64,000 nucleotides of DNA from Flavobacteriia bacterium 40-80 (GTDB lineage Bacteria > Bacteroidota > Bacteroidia > Flavobacteriales_D > Crocinitomicaceae): contig MKVF01000018.1 in the NCBI GenBank assembly GCA_001899145.1, forward strand, positions 310,001 through 374,000, in the 5' to 3' direction. Below are positions 56,332 through 63,451 of the stretch, in pieces (the first letter of the stretch is position 1; each line of letters opens with the position of its first letter). Position numbers and translations under genes: made by a program. Under the pieces are notes generated by a model that searched no databases, was not told the origin of the DNA, and saw only the letters and a list, made by a program, of their open reading frames with translations.

Positions 56332-57838
56332 ATGAAAGTATTGTTTCTTTACTATAATTACTTTGTGAAGAGAAGTATTGTTCTTCGGTGCAGGTGCATT
56401 GTCCTGCATTTTTTTGCGGATGGTAAAGTAAAACGTCTGTTGCTTTTGTTCAGTTTTTATTTTGTATTTTTCAGATGTGACGGACAGGAAAATCTGATTC
56501 CCCGTAATACAGGCCTAACAGATCGCGATTTGAAGGAACAGCTGTATCGTACTATAGAAAAGCAGATGGGACACTATGTTTACCGTTCGGAGCTAACACC
56601 GGAAGAAAATCAAAAACAAATGCAGCAGTTTATAATGGATGAGCTGCACAAAAGGCCGGAATACAGCAGACCATCTGCCGGAAATGGGTTTAATCAGTCA
56701 TCTCCGCAAATAAATTTTGAAAAAGAAATGACAAAACTACTGGAAGAAAGCTATCAAAAAAATACTATCACAACGGAAAGAAAATATTACAATTCGTCCT
56801 ATTATAACAGCGATCTTACGAATTATCTCAATGCAAAGCAGCTGATTACAGACATGCTTTCAGGAAAGCGGGAACTGTCTGTTAAAGATGCGTACTACTT
56901 TTCGGAAGCAGCTTACGGAAATCTGCATCTGACGTATGCAGAATACGATGAGGTCATCCGGTATAACAGCGAATTTATCCGCTCCTGGCTTCGAGAAAAT
57001 AATTATAACCTTTCCGGAAGCTTTACACCTGGGGATTCAGAAATTCATGTCGGATACACTTTATATCAACAGGAATGGAAAAACACAGGGGCATATTCCC
57101 TATTATTACGATTATATTGACGCATTGGGAGAAAAAGACAGAAGAAATTATTTTGTGACCAAGACGCTGGCTACAGGAAGCGGCCAGTGTCATACGTTTC
57201 CCGTGACGTATCTCATCCTGGCGGAAGCGCTCGGAGCAGAAGCAAGTCTTGCTTATAACCCGATGCATTCTTTTATCCGTTTCAGGAATAACCGTGGGAC
57301 GGCCGTTAATTACGAAACAACAGTGGACCGCTACCTGCCGAATTCATTTTACATTGAAACGCTTCCGGTCATGGCAGAAGCCCAGCGGAATGACCTGTAT
57401 GTTACTGATCTCAGCAGAAAGCAGGTGGTGGCGACCGTACTGTTTGATCTGGCGGTTAACTTCATAGAAGAGCACTGGCTTTCCGATAAGAAGTTTGTCT
57501 TAGACTGCATTCATATCGCAGAGCCTTTTTTCTATGGAAAAGAATTTGTCAATACAACCTGTAATTACCTTTATAAACGATTATATGCGGATGAGCTGAA
57601 CAACAAAGTACAGGAAAAAGGAATACGAAGCCTTGCGGAAATTCAGAAATATCCCGATGTTTTACAAGTATACAACGAATACCACAATTATATGGAGCGT
57701 ATCAGCAAGCTGGGAATCCAGGATTTTCCAGAAAGTGAATACCTGAAAATGCTGGAATATTATGATCGCAAAGGCAAGCTGCAAACAGCCAGAGATATGA
57801 AAGAGAAAACGAAACGATCTCTATTTACAAATGAATAA
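56332..57838 (+). pseudogene. Transglutaminase-like secreted protein, frameshifted
   Basis: Two overlapping frames make one protein of about 500 residues. Frame 1 (56332-57120) ends with the meaningless TGAYSLLLRLY, while frame 2 (stop at 57838) continues sensibly from about 57065 (YINRNGKTQGHIPYYYDYID). One extra base, perhaps in GGAAAAAC near 57078-57085, would explain it. The C-terminal half has the transglutaminase-like triad pattern GSGQCHTFP, NPMHSFIRF and NYETTVD. It is a diverged paralog of the next gene (QVVATVLFDLAVNFIEEHW against QSIGLCLVNLAKSYEHRFG). The N-terminus is uncertain; a hydrophobic stretch (RLLLLFSFYFVFF) suggests export. It could be a real frameshift, a recoding site or an assembly error. 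Confidence 0.7.
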
Positions 57839-57848
57839 TATTGTCAGT

Positions 57849-58979
57849 ATGAAGAACTATACTCCTGTTATTTTTCTGTTTTTACTCGCACTGCTTAGTG
57901 CCTGTCATACCGTTAAAAGAGGGCTGTCGGAGGATCCTGTTGAGCCGGATACAGGGCCGAAAGGTGTTTTTTCGGAAGTACTTCCGGCCGCTCCTGAGGA
58001 TACGGTAAAAGAAGCGTACCCGCAAGGTATGTCAGCAGGTACGATTTCTGAGAAAGTCATGTATGAGCAGGCTTTCGAAGAATTGAAAAGGATGCTGCAG
58101 GGAATAAAAGCGCCGGATTTCGAACGGGCGGTCTTTATCAGTGAAAACCCTTATTACGCAACTAATTATTTGTATGAAGATTTTCAGGTAAACATTGATG
58201 TTCATGAATACATGATCCGGCAGCTGATGCAGGCGAATAATAAAAGCGACAGCATGGATTTTGACGTGGCAGTAAATCAGTACGGGCGTTTTAATATAGA
58301 TGCTATCCGCTTTTTACCGGCGGAACGGAAGGAACTGTACCGTCAAGCACTCGCCAATTGGGCGATTTTCACCTATATAACCGATACAATCGCTGTTTAT
58401 CCGTATGATCATTTCCCTTATACCTACGCAACACACGACCCGTTTGGTATCAAAGACTGGCAGAATTCACAAGTTCTCCACCTGCTTTCGTCAGAAGATC
58501 AGAAAGGTAACTGTTTTGCGCTGACAGCTTTTTTTAAGATCCTTTCAAATCGCTTAAAATCGGATGCCCGGATTTGTACCGCACCGCAGCATATTTATAT
58601 CCAGCACCGGGATCCGAAAGGAGATTATTACAATGTGGAGCTGGCTACCGCAGGACATCCCGGAGACGGCACGATCCAGACCCTGACATACACGACAACG
58701 GAAGCCATCAAAAACGGTATTGCGCTGAGAAGTTATGATGAAAGACAGAGTATCGGCCTGTGCCTCGTGAACCTTGCAAAAAGCTATGAACACCGCTTTG
58801 GTGTGAAGAATGCTGATTTTATCTTACAGTGTGCGGAATTGGTACTGCAATATGATACTAAGAACCTGAGTGCCTTATTGCTGAAGCAGCAGGTACTGGA
58901 CGAACGATTGAGAAAGGAGGCATTACAGCTGAAAAGCGCCGATCCGGTTGTACTCCGGGTACAACCAGAAGCAGGGTAG
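57849..58979 (+). CDS. Transglutaminase-like lipoprotein, ended by in-frame TAG
   Basis: 376 residues from ATG 57849 (ATG 57831 is also in frame). The signal peptide ends in lipobox LLSAC. The core has a transglutaminase-like layout with Cys in QKGNCFALTAFF, His in PQHIYIQH and an acidic residue in YYNVELAT. It is paralogous to the upstream gene. The TAG at 58977 lies in the same frame as the RHS-core reading frame that follows. The 15 or so residues after the TAG (YELGYRQMPYD) align with the C-terminal end of the upstream paralog (SKLGIQDFPES). The gene therefore probably once continued through the TAG into the RHS part. Confidence 0.75.
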   Translation: MKNYTPVIFLFLLALLSACHTVKRGLSEDPVEPDTGPKGVFSEVLPAAPEDTVKEAYPQGMSAGTISEKVMYEQAFEELKRMLQGIKAPDFERAVFISENPYYATNYLYEDFQVNIDVHEYMIRQLMQANNKSDSMDFDVAVNQYGRFNIDAIRFLPAERKELYRQALANWAIFTYITDTIAVYPYDHFPYTYATHDPFGIKDWQNSQVLHLLSSEDQKGNCFALTAFFKILSNRLKSDARICTAPQHIYIQHRDPKGDYYNVELATAGHPGDGTIQTLTYTTTEAIKNGIALRSYDERQSIGLCLVNLAKSYEHRFGVKNADFILQCAELVLQYDTKNLSALLLKQQVLDERLRKEALQLKSADPVVLRVQPEAG

Positions 58980-59021
58980 GCAATAACCGGGCTGGAACAG
59001 CACCTTGCTCTGCTGTATGAA

Positions 59022-60098
59022 TTGGGCTACCGGCAGATGCCTTACGATATGCAGGAAGTGATCATGACTGGAAAGCAGCCGGAAACTTATGAAGATAAGA
59101 ACGAAAGCCCGTTTACGACCATTGACCCGAAGGATGAGCACCGGAAATCGTTTAAGACCTTATACGGAGGTCTGTTCCGGGAAGTATTCGAAAAAAAGGA
59201 GCTGGAAACTTACGGAAGCGTTACGTTTAATACGGTTACCAAACGTATTACAGCTGTTGATACAGCAGCAGTGGAAGGCTTTTTGATTGATCCGGTTGCT
59301 TTTGCCTATGATTTTGGAGCAAGGATGTATGACGCACGGTTGGGGAGATTCCTTTCGATTGACATGTATGCTGATAAATTTGTTTATCAGTCACCTTATA
59401 TTTTTGCAGGGAATACACCAATAATGGCAATTGATGTTAACGGAGATAGTATTCGTATAGCAAAGGCAATATATAGGTCCACTATGTCGGCACTTAAAAT
59501 TATGGCTTATACTGAACTTGGTGCAAAACTATATACATATTATCAATCAAATAATCACGAACATATTAATATATATGCTTTTGACAAAAATAAGAACGAG
59601 AATGATATGGGCTGGGCAGAAACTAATAGTTTTTACCGAGTTAAAATAAACAAAGGAGAGGTCACGGTTTTAAATAAAGATTCGAAAAGTAATCAGGATT
59701 ATATTAATGCTTCAGGATTTAGATTAAGACAGGGAGATATTAATCATTTTGTTGGTCGTAATTTTACAAATAATAAGCATATCGATTTAGATGAGTATGA
59801 CTTAGCATTTATATTATATCATGAAATGAAATCTCATATACAAGATAGAACGGAATCTGTAGACGGAGATCATGATAAATTTGGAAATAAGCGTTATATA
59901 CAGGGAATGGGATTGTGGTATTTTGATGAATGGGATAATACGAAAAAAATGGTGGTAAATTATGGGACTGATTCTTGGAATATATTTAAGCAAATTCTCG
60001 AAAAGAAGATTAATGATGGAAAAGGCTCAGATCAAAATATTAAAGACTTCAAATACATGAATAGCTATGAAAAAGAACAAGAGAATGGAAAAAAATAA
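59022..60098 (+). CDS. RHS-core protein with C-terminal toxin-like domain
   Basis: The frame is open from 58980, directly after the TAG of the preceding gene and in phase with it. Start candidates are TTG 59022 and ATG 59037, 59049 or 59064. The RHS core, ending a typical polymorphic toxin backbone, is clear: AYDFGARMYDARLGRFLSID, then QSPYIFAGNTPIMAIDVNGD, ending at ~59450. No YD repeats precede it. From ~59451 the DNA becomes distinctly AT-rich and a new domain begins, with HEMKSH (59820-59837) and downstream GDHDKFG (59868-59888), a possible HExxxH metal site. It overlaps a lipoprotein gene by 32 nt, the usual place of an immunity gene. Confidence 0.8.
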   Translation: MGYRQMPYDMQEVIMTGKQPETYEDKNESPFTTIDPKDEHRKSFKTLYGGLFREVFEKKELETYGSVTFNTVTKRITAVDTAAVEGFLIDPVAFAYDFGARMYDARLGRFLSIDMYADKFVYQSPYIFAGNTPIMAIDVNGDSIRIAKAIYRSTMSALKIMAYTELGAKLYTYYQSNNHEHINIYAFDKNKNENDMGWAETNSFYRVKINKGEVTVLNKDSKSNQDYINASGFRLRQGDINHFVGRNFTNNKHIDLDEYDLAFILYHEMKSHIQDRTESVDGDHDKFGNKRYIQGMGLWYFDEWDNTKKMVVNYGTDSWNIFKQILEKKINDGKGSDQNIKDFKYMNSYEKEQENGKK

Positions 60099-60634
60099 GT
60101 ATTTCTTTATAATATATATAACTCTTCTATTGCTGATGTATAGTTGTAGTACTGTAGATTACAGTGTAAAATCTAATCCTGATTTTGGAAGTTTGGCAAG
60201 TTTTGAAGTTTATAAAGAAGTAGATGGTAGGTATAAAATAAACTTTGATAAAGTTAATGGTGGATTTTTATTACTGAATAAAGATACTGTTTTCATCGTT
60301 TTGAATAATGATAGAAATAAAACTAAAATTCCTTTTTTTATACAAGATAACCTTTTGGAAAGCCAAGATACTTTGTTGTTAGATTCTACAGTTGCTGAAA
60401 CCGTAATAATTCGGAGGAATGTCGGGTTATTTTCTGAGAAAATTTGTTATGCTGACATTATTTTCACATCGGAAATTGAACATAGTTCGGGATATCGAAT
60501 TTGGTTTTCATTTGATAGAGGAATCATTCAGATTCTGACTAAAGATATTGTTTGCGTAGAAGTATTGACATTTTTTCCAGATTTAAAATATAGAATAATT
60601 AAAAAGGATAAAAATGCAGGGTATTTATAGTTTT
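59946..60634 (+). repeat. Duplication unit, copy 1 (toxin tail plus lipoprotein)
   Basis: The last 49 codons of the toxin-like gene plus the next lipoprotein gene recur, diverged, at 61612-62291. Both copies end with GGGTATTTATAGTTT. Similarity stops at both ends of the unit, which shows the segment was duplicated as a module. Confidence 0.85.
60067..60630 (+). CDS. Candidate immunity lipoprotein 1
   Basis: 187 residues (181 if started at ATG 60085). A lipoprotein signal with lipobox LLMYSC is followed by a beta-rich domain with KIPFFIQDN, ICYADI and GYRIWFSFDRGIIQI, ending LKYRIIKKDKNAGYL. It overlaps the 3' end of the toxin-like gene. Two diverged copies follow downstream. The position, the overlap and the lipoprotein anchor fit a periplasmic immunity protein for the RHS-tip toxin. 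No direct evidence of that is in the sequence. Confidence 0.8.
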   Translation: MKKNKRMEKNKYFFIIYITLLLLMYSCSTVDYSVKSNPDFGSLASFEVYKEVDGRYKINFDKVNGGFLLLNKDTVFIVLNNDRNKTKIPFFIQDNLLESQDTLLLDSTVAETVIIRRNVGLFSEKICYADIIFTSEIEHSSGYRIWFSFDRGIIQILTKDIVCVEVLTFFPDLKYRIIKKDKNAGYL

Positions 60635-60675
60635 TATGACTTGTAGAATATCTTAAGAACAATAAATATCAGCGG

Positions 60676-61158
60676 ATGCGAAGAATAATCAATATTAAAA
60701 CTGTGGTTTTATTTGTATTAATATTATTTAATAATATTTCTTTCTCGCAGATCAGCATAAGTAATAGTGAGAAGGCAGATTCGAAAGGTGATATGCTTTG
60801 TACTGTTTTTATATCAAGTGGTTTTGAGAATGATACTTGTGATATTATTAGTAATGAATGTATTTTGTATAAGAATGTAATTTTAAAAAGCGATGATTAT
60901 TCTGGTTTGACGGGATACATTATAGAGATAGATTCAGGTTTTAACTTCCATCTGGTTCAAGAAGGAAAAAGAAATAGTGCAACTTTGAACACATTAGATA
61001 AACAATGTGATAGTGATAATTTATCGATAGGTATTTTAATTAACAATAAAAGCTACCTATATCGTATAAATACTGATGTTGATAAATATATTGTAATCTA
61101 CAAGAGAGGCGAAGATATATTTTTTGAGAGTTTTCAGAAACGACCAGGTTTTGAATAA
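60676..61158 (+). CDS. Small secreted protein in the immunity array
   Basis: 160 residues with a signal peptide (cut near SFSQ). The mature part has Cys residues in MLCTV, DTCDI, NECIL and KQCDS and is otherwise unremarkable. No family is recognised. It lies between immunity-like copies 1 and 2 in strongly AT-rich DNA, so it may be an orphan immunity gene for a different toxin tip, or a cargo gene of the array. Confidence 0.7.
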   Translation: MRRIINIKTVVLFVLILFNNISFSQISISNSEKADSKGDMLCTVFISSGFENDTCDIISNECILYKNVILKSDDYSGLTGYIIEIDSGFNFHLVQEGKRNSATLNTLDKQCDSDNLSIGILINNKSYLYRINTDVDKYIVIYKRGEDIFFESFQKRPGFE

Positions 61159-61213
61159 GAGCATAATACTAGGTTAGCAATTTGAAAAGTGGAGAAGTAA
61201 TGTTCAATATAAA

Positions 61214-61621
61214 ATGGGAACAGATAAAGTAACTAAACATATTTTTAGTAGAAATACGATTATTAAAATGCTATGTTTTTACTTGATATACGCTATAGTT
61301 ATTTATGTTATAAATAGGGCAATAAATAACTATAATATGCAGTTTTACAAGGGTAAAGACGATGGTTTTTTTGTAAGAATAGAATCAATTTTGATTTTTA
61401 GTATAATCTTCTTTGCACTGACTCCCCAAAAGCTCTTTTTTTCAAATTTTATTTTAGGGTTTTTCTACGGACTGTTGTGTGTAATTATTGGCTATTTTAT
61501 ATGGTTTAAATTATTTGATGATGATGGAATCTCATTTCATGTGCTCAGTTCTGTATTCATTTTTATTTTTTATTTAGTGCATCACAAATTTATTCGTCCT
61601 CATAATACTGAGAAATGGTAG
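61214..61621 (+). CDS. Four-helix membrane protein in the immunity array
   Basis: 135 residues with four hydrophobic segments (~16-35, 53-70, 75-100, 108-126), so an inner-membrane protein. Its last codons run into the start of the duplicated toxin-tail fragment (both share AAATGGT.GTAAATTATGG around 61613). A membrane protein of this size could be an immunity protein for a pore-forming or membrane-acting toxin; this is speculation from context. Confidence 0.65.
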   Translation: MGTDKVTKHIFSRNTIIKMLCFYLIYAIVIYVINRAINNYNMQFYKGKDDGFFVRIESILIFSIIFFALTPQKLFFSNFILGFFYGLLCVIIGYFIWFKLFDDDGISFHVLSSVFIFIFYLVHHKFIRPHNTEKW

Positions 61622-61758
61622 TAAATTATGGTACTGATTCTTGGAATATATTTAAACAAATTCTTGAAAAGAAGATAAATGATGGAAAAGGCTCCGAACA
61701 AAATATTAAAGATTTAAAATACATGAAAGAATATGAAGCAGGCCAAGAGAAAAAATAA
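61615..61758 (+). pseudogene. Fragment of the toxin 3' end (47 codons)
   Basis: In frame from ATG 61615 it reads MVVNYGTDSWNIFKQILEKK and continues to a TAA at 61756. This matches the last 49 codons of the toxin-like gene almost residue for residue (toxin: MVVNYGTDSWNIFKQILEKK). It has no frameshift and no start signal of its own. It is the stump left by a duplicated or displaced toxin tip, as seen in polymorphic-toxin arrays. Confidence 0.85.
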
Positions 61759-62287
61759 TTATTTGTTTTACTTGTCAATCTTATTTCTGTTATTACACTC
61801 TTGCAGGGAAAAGATAAACTATGAGGTGAGTGCTTCTCCTGATATGGGTAATTTAAGTGAATTTAAAATAAGTAAAACAAATATAAAAAATGAATATAAT
61901 ATTCAATTTAGTGAGCGAAATAATGCTGTTTTACATATAACTGATTCTATTGTTTTTATCTCTTTTTCATCAGAGAATAATGAAGAAAAAAGGATTCTCT
62001 TTAAAAAAGATAGCTTTTCTTTTGAAAATGATACGTTATCCAATAAATATGACGATAAAATCATTATCAAGAAGTTCCCTGGATTAGTATTGGATGATAT
62101 ATGCAGGGCTGATATTCTTTTTGACTATGATAGTGCTATTATGAGACCATATATTCTTTGGTTTTCATTTCAGAAAGGATTTGTGCAAGTGATAACAGGA
62201 GATATTGTTTGTGTAGAAATATTGACATTTCTTCCAGACTTAAAATATAGAATGATTAGAAAGGATAAAAATGCAGGGTATTTATAG
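61733..62287 (+). CDS. Candidate immunity lipoprotein 2
   Basis: 184 residues, a paralog of candidate immunity lipoprotein 1. Lipobox LLLHSC, then a core with ICRADI and FSFQKGFVQVI, ending LKYRMIRKDKNAGYL against LKYRIIKKDKNAGYL in copy 1. It overlaps the toxin-tail fragment by 26 nt, the same arrangement as copy 1 with the full toxin. Many substitutions in the central part suggest a different or changed specificity. Confidence 0.8.
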   Translation: MKQAKRKNNYLFYLSILFLLLHSCREKINYEVSASPDMGNLSEFKISKTNIKNEYNIQFSERNNAVLHITDSIVFISFSSENNEEKRILFKKDSFSFENDTLSNKYDDKIIIKKFPGLVLDDICRADILFDYDSAIMRPYILWFSFQKGFVQVITGDIVCVEILTFLPDLKYRMIRKDKNAGYL

Positions 62288-62393
62288 TTTCTCAAGATTA
62301 TAAAACGTCTGGAATTAATAAAAACAAAGATTTGGAATTAAGTTGAACAGATTTTATATTTTGTAGAAATGTGATATAAATCTATTTTGGTTA

Positions 62394-62947
62394 ATGAGCT
62401 ATTTATATATTAAAATCAGGACTTTTTATCTTGCGATTATCTTTCTACTGCTGACTTATAGTTGTGGTAAAACAGACTATACTTTAAAAATTAGTTCAGA
62501 AAAGTTTCCGGAAGAAGCGTCAGAATTTCAGTTTTATAAGACAGGTAATAATCTGTATAAAATGAAGCTTGATACTCTTATTCAGGGACAAGTACACTTT
62601 GAGAATGATTCATTTGCATATATTGTGTTTGATAACTTTAAGGATAGAAAAATCCCTTTTTTTATACGCAATAATTTCATTGTTACGTCAGATACGATTA
62701 AAGACACCCTAAATAATATTGAATTTGTGTAAGCCAAAAAGAAGGAGTGGCTTATGAGGAAATTTCTAATGTAGTGATCAGGTACAAAAAGTCGGTCGTG
62801 TTTGGAGAGTATAATGTTTGGTTTTCTTTCAAAAAAGGAATCTTGCAGATTATTTATTTTGATGGTATTGTAAAAGGTTATACTATTTTTTATCCCCAGG
62901 AAAAATATTACAGTAAGATTGTTGATTCATCATGTGTTAGGATTTGA
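62394..62947 (+). pseudogene. Candidate immunity lipoprotein 3, frameshifted
   Basis: The frame from 62394 encodes a lipoprotein (lipobox LTYSC) with KIPFFIRNN and TSDTIKDTL as in the other copies, and stops after NNIEFV (62732). The remaining part lies in another frame from ~62723, with VWFSFKKGILQII matching IWFSFDRGIIQIL of copy 1. A one-base deletion near 62722-62730 explains this. It has no adjacent toxin fragment. Confidence 0.75.
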
Positions 62948-62990
62948 ATGAAAGGAAAAGATAATAGTATTTTATTTGTTATAAATAGGT

Positions 62991-63122
62991 GTGTGTGATG
63001 CTGTCCTTTTTTTCATAAAGATAGACAAGGTTTATATAATTGATAGATTCTATTCATACAAACCAGTGGTAATATCTCTGAAAAATATTGATAGTAGAAT
63101 CTTTAAGGAATTAGTAAGATAG
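62991..63122 (+). other. Short open frame, possible gene fragment
   Basis: A GTG-started frame of 43 codons (MCDAVLFFIKIDKVYIIDRF, then YSYKPVVISLKNIDSRIFKELVR) reads like protein rather than random sequence. It has no clear start signal. It could be a remnant of another array gene; the evidence is weak. Confidence 0.25.
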
Positions 63123-63160
63123 AATGAGAAGGAGTATTCATAATAAAAATGGACTAAACA

Positions 63161-63451
63161 ATGAATGAAGACGAACAAATATTACTTTTTAGTTATCTCC
63201 TTTTTTGGACGACGTTTGCTTTTTTACTTATAAAGAATAAGTATAATAAACAGATATTAATAATTAACCTGACAATTCATGTAATTTATAGCTCTTATTT
63301 TTTACACTGTCTATTTTATCGGTCATATGGAAACGGGACAGCATTAGCATGGTGGTTTTACCTTTTGCTATTACTTTGGACTCATTGTATTATTAACCTA
63401 GGGCAACTGATTCATTTAATTATCAAGGCGAAAAAGCAAAAGATAAATTGA
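63161..63451 (+). CDS. Small three-helix membrane protein
   Basis: 96 residues with three hydrophobic segments (~8-24, 31-50, 60-88) and a basic tail (KAKKQKIN). No family is recognised. It is the last gene of the AT-rich region; like the four-helix protein above it, it may be an immunity-type membrane protein or an unrelated insertion. Confidence 0.6.
   Translation: MNEDEQILLFSYLLFWTTFAFLLIKNKYNKQILIINLTIHVIYSSYFLHCLFYRSYGNGTALAWWFYLLLLLWTHCIINLGQLIHLIIKAKKQKIN

Follow-up and report, generated by a model that had tools for sequence, protein, structure and literature searches.

What kind of system is encoded where an RHS core without YD repeats stands behind two transglutaminase-like genes and ahead of a run of small lipoprotein, secreted and membrane genes? 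In the window (the whole stretch of 64,000 nucleotides of Flavobacteriia bacterium 40-80 DNA that was analysed), such a locus is probably a decaying copy of a polymorphic toxin–immunity system with an undescribed three-gene carrier, in which the toxicity of the tip, the immunity function of the small genes and the role of the first two genes, A and B, are putative (Table 1). The gene order and overlaps reported in the first-pass annotation were reproduced, and the RHS core that it had read without YD repeats is a TIGR03696 match (31.3 bits in one search and 35.3 in another; cut-off 32.5), again with no YD repeats. The abrupt switch to AT-rich DNA is also found, the GC fraction falling from about 0.46–0.50 (59000–59300) to 0.30 from about 59450, where the tip starts. 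The useful yield of Pfam and NCBIfam searches with the window proteins was limited to the RHS core and a transglutaminase signal below threshold.

Table 1. Features of the locus, in coordinates of the window
Feature	Position	Strand	Remarks
Gene A, exported transglutaminase-like and helical-repeat protein, frameshifted	56332..57838	+	Both halves match one protein of 435-497 aa in relatives
Gene B, transglutaminase-like lipoprotein, LLSAC lipobox	57831..58979	+	In-frame TAG at 58977-58979; homology runs on past the stop
Gene B C-terminus, detached, in the frame of gene B	58980..59100	+	ELGYRQMPYDMQ, the counterpart of the GYREMPxxMY terminus that B has in relatives
Pre-core segment of the protein C type, lacking a signal peptide of its own	59101..59285	+	Aligned with C proteins of L005 and L031-L034
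RHS core with the additional canonical half of YD-repeat RHS proteins (YDFGARMYDARLGRF)	59286..59444	+	TIGR03696
AT-rich toxin-like tip with a HEMKSH motif (59820-59837) that may be a zinc-peptidase helix	59445..60098	+	
Lipoprotein 1, candidate immunity gene	60067..60630	+	32-base overlap with the 3' end of the tip
Small secreted protein, candidate orphan immunity gene	60676..61158	+	No Pfam or NCBIfam family
Small membrane protein, candidate orphan immunity gene	61214..61621	+	No Pfam or NCBIfam family
Tip 3' end, duplicated	61602..61768	+	84% DNA identity to 59935-60108; 48 aa, 81%
Lipoprotein 2, paralogous to lipoprotein 1 and overlapping the tip-tail duplicate	61733..62287	+	
Lipoprotein 3, broken paralog	62394..62947	+	62394-62732, with a remnant at 62747-62947 in a different frame
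Small membrane protein closing the AT-rich stretch	63161..63451	+	No Pfam family

The locus belongs, in decayed form, to a gene module that is conserved in Bacteroidota and made up of A, B and a short RHS-core protein, C. Gene A is a single gene read in frame 1 to about 57010–57045 and in frame 2 thereafter, with its Cys and His (GQCH, PMHS) and N-x-E motifs kept; gene B likewise retains its Cys-His-Glu residues (GNCF, PQHI, NVE). The two transglutaminase-like genes ahead of the RHS core were placed in the right order by the first-pass annotation, but A is frameshifted and B is stopped by the TAG. The open stretch 58980–60098 shares the frame of gene B, starts with the C-terminal end that gene B lacks and runs on into the RHS core and the toxin-like tip; homology searches align across the stop without a break, as '1 TAG'. 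The carrier was nonetheless wrongly taken for one open protein, since gene B ends at the stop. In homologs, B and the RHS-core protein are usually separate. It could still be argued that the copy is a live toxin, B and C forming one long lipoprotein-anchored protein and the frameshift and the TAG being assembly errors or bypassed in translation, as would fit the common frame of gene B and the RHS/tip part, the catalytic-type residues retained in A and B and the natural open B–C fusion of 778 aa found in G128. Such a scenario is unlikely, given that three separate lesions (in A, B and lipoprotein 3) are clustered within 7 kb while the remaining protein-coding genes of the window appear intact, as judged from the assembly sequence alone, and that a stop-containing copy of B is also found in another relative (G249:C38). 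The window copy does not have the form of an intact exported toxin: the frame of the tip, too, is without a signal peptide. Because A and B are broken and the export signal of the tip is lost, the copy is probably a relic that, if retained at all, would serve as an array of antidotes.

Elsewhere in the same genome, an intact paralogous locus encodes A and B together with C, in this case a short secreted RHS-core protein ending in a zinc-peptidase-like tip, and has paralogous genes for secreted proteins. In named genomes, a scan recovered 80 loci, and this set, minus duplicates and with same-family genomes added, forms the 83 gene-B loci considered here; C is present at 75 of these and A at 72, and the eight loci without C in the available stretch include some at contig ends. 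The prevailing gene orders are A-B-C-i and A-C-i-B. Within the searches made the module is confined to Bacteroidota, where it is spread over many genera, the cultured ones including Chitinophaga, Hymenobacter, Dysgonomonas and Sediminibacterium. A phage-borne system is unlikely, as only 3 matches came from scanning viral contigs for gene B. At nearly every locus, gene B and the RHS-core protein are encoded separately, fusion being confined to G128 and, interrupted by the stop, the window; what had been described as a transglutaminase-like N-terminal part of the toxin usually corresponds to two separate exported proteins. Being conserved, modular and present in cultured genera, the module represents a possible new delivery class open to direct testing.

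Cys, His and Glu are invariant across 68 A and 81 B proteins, the third residue being an invariant Glu where Asp is expected. Pfam gives a generic transglutaminase-like signal only, in 16 of 80 B proteins. The predicted structure of B (pLDDT 84.8) finds menin, a scaffold of the transglutaminase-like/TPR kind, in the 23 best PDB matches, all weak (best E 2.5e-3, TM about 0.4), and points to a bacterial menin-like fold, a transglutaminase-like domain with helical repeats, that keeps a possible active site; the likeness is one of fold only, and PDB sequence searches with the gene B protein gave no match to menin, an uninformative result. The AlphaFold model of protein C has a pLDDT of 52. From linkage and predicted fold, we infer a part for A and B in toxin delivery. 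It seems improbable that they are ordinary surface or peptidoglycan-processing proteins lying beside RHS tip cassettes: the generic Pfam signal and the eight loci where B has no nearby C would agree with this, but C accompanies B at all the others, and permuted orders still keep A, B and C together across many Bacteroidota genera. More tentatively, A and B may constitute a dedicated, Bacteroidota-specific apparatus for toxin export and activation, in which the two, as menin-like transglutaminase/TPR proteins whose Cys-His-Glu active site is unusual, would recognise the half-RHS part that is constant in C and, at the cell surface, attach the toxin covalently, clip it or transfer it, by a route distinct from T5SS, T6SS, T7SS and Maf; we regard this as possible rather than likely.

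Complete C proteins are about 280–400 aa long (typically about 340 aa) and carry a signal peptide, with about 120 aa ahead of the tip and no YD repeats. TIGR03696 (NCBIfam) matches 81 of 84 C sequences at E<=0.01, and what is conserved is the second half of the RHS core only, its first half being missing from 88 of 90 homologous C genes; outside the window copy, the extra half is found in the other two, both at L111. The N-terminal part of C is alike in 3389 of 3403 pairs of proteins and the tips in 57 of 3403, the tips falling into 48 clusters. Where C genes stand in tandem at a single locus, they have as much as 91% of the N-terminal part in common and only 17–27% of the tip. Known toxin families matched by the tips are TNT, Tox-REase-7, Ntox21, Toxin-JAB1, TseH, Peptidase_M91 (6 members) and Hydrolase_2, and 30 of 81 tips carry an HE motif. 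A small gene lies directly behind C in 81 of 83 cases, and all 14 similar pairs of such downstream genes stand behind similar tips (Fisher test, p 5e-26, with non-independent pairs counted as independent). The rule used to call signal peptides is a crude one based on hydrophobicity, by which the downstream partner of an HE-motif tip is exported in 30 of 30 cases; leaderless partners accompany REase-7 and Ntox21 tips.

A constant N-terminal part with exchangeable tips and a covarying downstream gene are both among the criteria for polymorphic toxins (Zhang et al. 2012) and are both found here; such tip exchange and covariation are what toxins and antidotes of bacterial rivalry would be expected to show. 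Polymorphic toxins determine which bacteria can live side by side in dense communities, and the module yields dozens of candidate tip–antidote pairs, many unlike any Pfam family. Since the candidate antidotes are mostly exported or membrane-bound, most tips probably act in the envelope. It is very unlikely that the module is instead a kit of secreted peptidases and hydrolases with dedicated inhibitors, used in feeding or host interaction and not in killing rivals, for although the many zinc-peptidase-like tips and the mostly exported downstream proteins, reminiscent of protease inhibitors, would suit it, TNT, Tox-REase-7 and Ntox21 tips are without a known feeding role, the partners of the latter two are leaderless, and tip turnover on a constant N-terminal part is a hallmark of polymorphic toxins.

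As a toxin–immunity system, the intact module would work as follows. A and B would be exported proteins combining transglutaminase-like domains with helical repeats, B sometimes being lipid-anchored, and C a short Sec-exported protein in which a constant pre-core and half RHS core carry a toxic tip of about 200 aa that can be exchanged. The antidote would be the product of the gene that follows C directly, mostly exported or membrane-bound, with a minority leaderless and paired with nuclease-type tips. Possibly, A and B bind the constant part of C and, at the cell surface, present the toxin, clip it or pass it on, in a role like that of MafA towards MafB in Neisseria, and the tip then attacks neighbours without the matching antidote. 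Recombination in the core would swap tip and antidote as a cassette, and swapped-out tails may stay behind with their antidotes, for example at 61602–62287.

The lipoproteins of the window are consistent with such an origin. The three paralogs first described are indeed related (42% and 36% identity to the first), but the third is broken. The duplicated toxin tail was confirmed in an alignment of 176 columns, and a match of 84% (134 columns) also links the ends of lipoproteins 1 and 2; the tip tail and the lipoprotein have been duplicated together as one unit. Position, paralogy and the duplicated tail make the lipoproteins candidate immunity proteins. A profile search across this genome found no lipoproteins of this type beyond the three, and no relative of the window tip was found in 346 genomes of the phylum or in the plasmid collection, nor any match in a PDB sequence search; the pairing of this tip with the lipoproteins is therefore putative. 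Other HExxxH tips (L065, L079) have a layout similar to that of the window tip and no significant match to it, so that 'zinc peptidase' is a motif-level guess here. Across Bacteroidota, the transglutaminase-like pair and the short RHS-core protein recur with varied tips, each with a different small gene behind it, as the first-pass annotation had anticipated; neither an RHS core always joined to YD repeats nor, within this genome, lipoproteins lying mostly away from RHS tips, the outcomes it had set against its own reading, was found.

Delivery as a T6SS Rhs effector was rejected, VipB being present in 1 of 17 gene-B-bearing genomes and absent from that of the window, and the module bears on how Bacteroidota without a T6SS deliver toxins. 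SprA (T9SS) is found in 17 of 17 gene-B-bearing genomes and in 268 of 346 genomes of the phylum sample, the clades not being balanced in this comparison. The nearest precedent is the class of inactive-transglutaminase RHS toxins, in which a signal peptide, an N-terminal transglutaminase domain that has lost catalytic residues and RHS repeats that follow it reside in the same protein (Zhang et al. 2012; PMC3482391). The three-gene carrier is undescribed, but a related idea is not new: both systems tie a signal peptide, a transglutaminase-like domain and RHS sequences to exchangeable toxin domains. Here, however, the transglutaminase-like domain is encoded by two genes of its own, repeats are absent, and whereas the inactive class is defined by loss of at least one of Cys, His and Asp, Cys and His are invariant, with Glu, also invariant, in place of Asp. 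In the MafA-MafB-MafI system of Neisseria, MafA is an outer-membrane protein and the dedicated partner of the toxin, and a conserved exported N-terminal part, variable tips, a dedicated partner gene and multi-toxin genomic islands are common ground (PMC7738311; PMC3482391, section 37); a transglutaminase-like partner and an RHS core are not described there, and the likeness is one of architecture alone. TANFOR toxins share Bacteroidetes specificity, a signal peptide, variable tips with a downstream immunity gene and T9SS-bearing hosts, but are large proteins with a TIGR02542 domain (PMC7073777); membership was rejected, as TIGR02542 is not among the NCBIfam matches of the 84 C sequences or the window proteins. 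Canonical YD-repeat RHS toxins likewise have an RHS core ahead of the tip and a small gene behind it; C differs in that such repeats are absent and the core is limited to its second half, to which the window copy adds the first. A conventional YD-repeat carrier was rejected because so short a segment precedes the tip in C, with no repeat array. Canonical YD-repeat RHS toxins are also encoded in the genome of the window (L007, L008 and L009).

Judged by its evolution, protein C, the short RHS-core protein encoded beside the exported transglutaminase-like proteins A and B, is a polymorphic toxin. Pairwise comparison of 83 complete C proteins (3403 pairs) gives a single cluster for the N-terminal part, with similarity in 3389 pairs, but 48 clusters for the C-terminal tips, with similarity in only 57. 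Nine of the 12 tandem C pairs within one locus share 59-91% of the N-terminal part and only 17-23% of the tip, the level of unrelated sequences. Family matches of the tips comprise Peptidase_M91 (6 members), TNT, Tox-REase-7, Ntox21, Toxin-JAB1, TseH, Tox-MPTase3 and a cell-wall hydrolase. Of 84 C sequences scanned, that of the window among them, 81 show an RHS-associated core. The C proteins are too short to hold YD repeats, and 76 of the 83 carry a hydrophobic leader.

At the sequence level, the gene behind C shows the behaviour expected of an antidote. A small same-strand gene other than A, B or C follows C in 81 of 83 cases, mostly overlapping it or starting no more than a few tens of bases away. 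Diversity is greater among these genes than among the tips, and similar pairs lie behind similar tips in 14 of 14 cases (Fisher p = 5e-26 for covariation of neighbour and tip, a value that is overstated, the pairs not being independent). All 30 neighbours of tips with an HE motif have a leader; leaderless neighbours occur behind 11 of the 51 other tips, these tips being nuclease-type wherever a family could be named. Such a pattern would be expected if the antidote resides at the tip's site of action. On contig C5 of the window's own genome, two paralogous exported proteins of about 210 aa (L011:80-712 and L014:72-701), each behind an ordinary RHS-core tip, carry a peptidase-like HExxH-type motif (HEMKH and HEQVH), unusual in the antidote position.

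Scanning named genomes with the gene B alignment gave 176 relatives, and the 80 loci kept belong, according to their titles, to Bacteroidota and near kin (Chitinophaga, Hymenobacter, Sediminibacterium, Dysgonomonas, Prevotellaceae, Cytophagales, Balneola and others). With duplicates dropped and same-family loci added, 83 gene B loci were obtained, with C present in 75 of them and A in 72. The most frequent orders are A-B-C (n = 29) and A-C-i-B (n = 21; i is the small gene behind C), and tandem C-i-C-i forms also occur. The distribution of the module is patchy: it occurs in 5 of 200 family genomes, 11 of 399 at the level of the order and 7 of 346 at that of the phylum. In Dysgonomonas sp. PF1-14 (L111:6849-12140), a 1763-aa RHS protein shares its locus with A, B and C and is possibly a link between two carrier types. 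In another genome (G140), the A-B-C locus adjoins a tyrosine-recombinase-like gene and excisionase-like genes (L033:9646-10947), suggesting a mobile island. Three IMG/VR contigs classed as viral (L146, L147 and L148) also encode gene B, either as prophage cargo or as misassigned host DNA.

Of 80 B proteins, 16 give a Pfam match to a transglutaminase-like domain. A Cys and a His are invariant across 68 A and 81 B proteins, as is a Glu, which, in our reading, would occupy the place of the transglutaminase Asp. When a model of B (L005:9558-10763; pLDDT 84.8) was compared with the PDB, menin accounted for the 23 best matches (best E 2.5e-3, TM about 0.4); a sequence search gave no match between B and menin. 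In menin, a transglutaminase-like domain is packed against helical repeats that bind peptides. As modelled, the B fold resembles that of human menin, yet the invariant Cys-His-Glu is kept, and B is possibly a bacterial counterpart of the menin fold. A and B would bind C and present or process it. The closest working precedent for this role is MafA, without which MafB does not cross the outer membrane (PMC7738311). The nearest known systems are the inactive-transglutaminase RHS toxins, the TANFOR toxins (PMC7073777) and Maf. However, the 'inactive transglutaminase' domains of Zhang et al. (2012; PMC3482391) have lost their catalytic residues and stand at the head of the toxin itself, whereas A and B keep Cys-His with Glu. 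No description of the A-B-C module was found in the open-access literature, although single members may figure in the supplement of Zhang et al. As to delivery, T6SS was rejected as a general route because VipB is present in only one of 17 genomes; T9SS occurs in all 17, compared with 268 of the 346 genomes sampled from the phylum, a link that is suggestive only.

Searching the window's own genome with gene B revealed an intact locus (L005, contig C29), in which A has 466 aa, B has 401 aa and a lipobox, and C is a separate 351-aa protein with a signal peptide, a pre-core segment, the second half of the RHS core and a tip with HEVGHTLGILH. Behind C, and extending to the contig end, come three paralogous secreted genes or fragments, which we read as an antidote array in the making. 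The A-B-C order with different tips also occurs in same-family genomes; in one (G128), a single 778-aa frame encodes a B-C fusion, a natural counterpart of the B/C arrangement in the window.

The features described in the first-pass annotation are all present in the window: the gene order and overlaps, the fall in GC, the paralogy and the duplicated tail. The RHS core of the window copy carries a canonical first half (YDFGARMYDARLGRF). Among 90 C genes this half recurs just twice, both times in L111, and it is common among the other RHS proteins of the window's genome; because of this the window copy looks like a chimera that arose by recombination within the core. The tip contains HEMKSH, in a layout similar to the HExxxH tips of two retrieved loci (L065 and L079), a similarity that is not significant. 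A unit made up of the last 48 codons of the tip and the lipoprotein that follows occurs twice, separated by two unrelated small genes, an arrangement that would be expected of a displaced toxin-tail/antidote cassette. Since no relative of the tip was found among 346 phylum genomes, and none of the lipoproteins elsewhere in their own genome, the proposed pairing of the two rests on linkage and duplication.

Features of the window locus and of the intact locus in the same genome
Feature	Position	Strand	Remark
Gene A	56332-57838	+	single gene, frameshifted
Gene B	57831-58979	+	ends at in-frame TAG
RHS core	59286-59444	+	inside open stretch 58980-60098
Secreted-protein paralogs behind intact locus	L005:11815-13276		one complete, one truncated, one cut off by contig edge

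Compared with its relatives, the first half of gene A lies in frame 1 and the remainder in frame 2, from about 57010-57045. The open stretch behind gene B shares its frame and contains, in order, B's missing C-terminus, the pre-core segment, the RHS core and the tip. Lipoprotein 3 is likewise broken. We read the locus as probably decaying, because A, B and lipoprotein 3 are broken while the remaining protein-coding genes of the window appear intact; alternatively, the breaks could be an assembly error. Another copy of gene B (G249:C38:2579-3754) has three stops inside (one TGA and two TAA), so that decay of such loci is not unique to the window.
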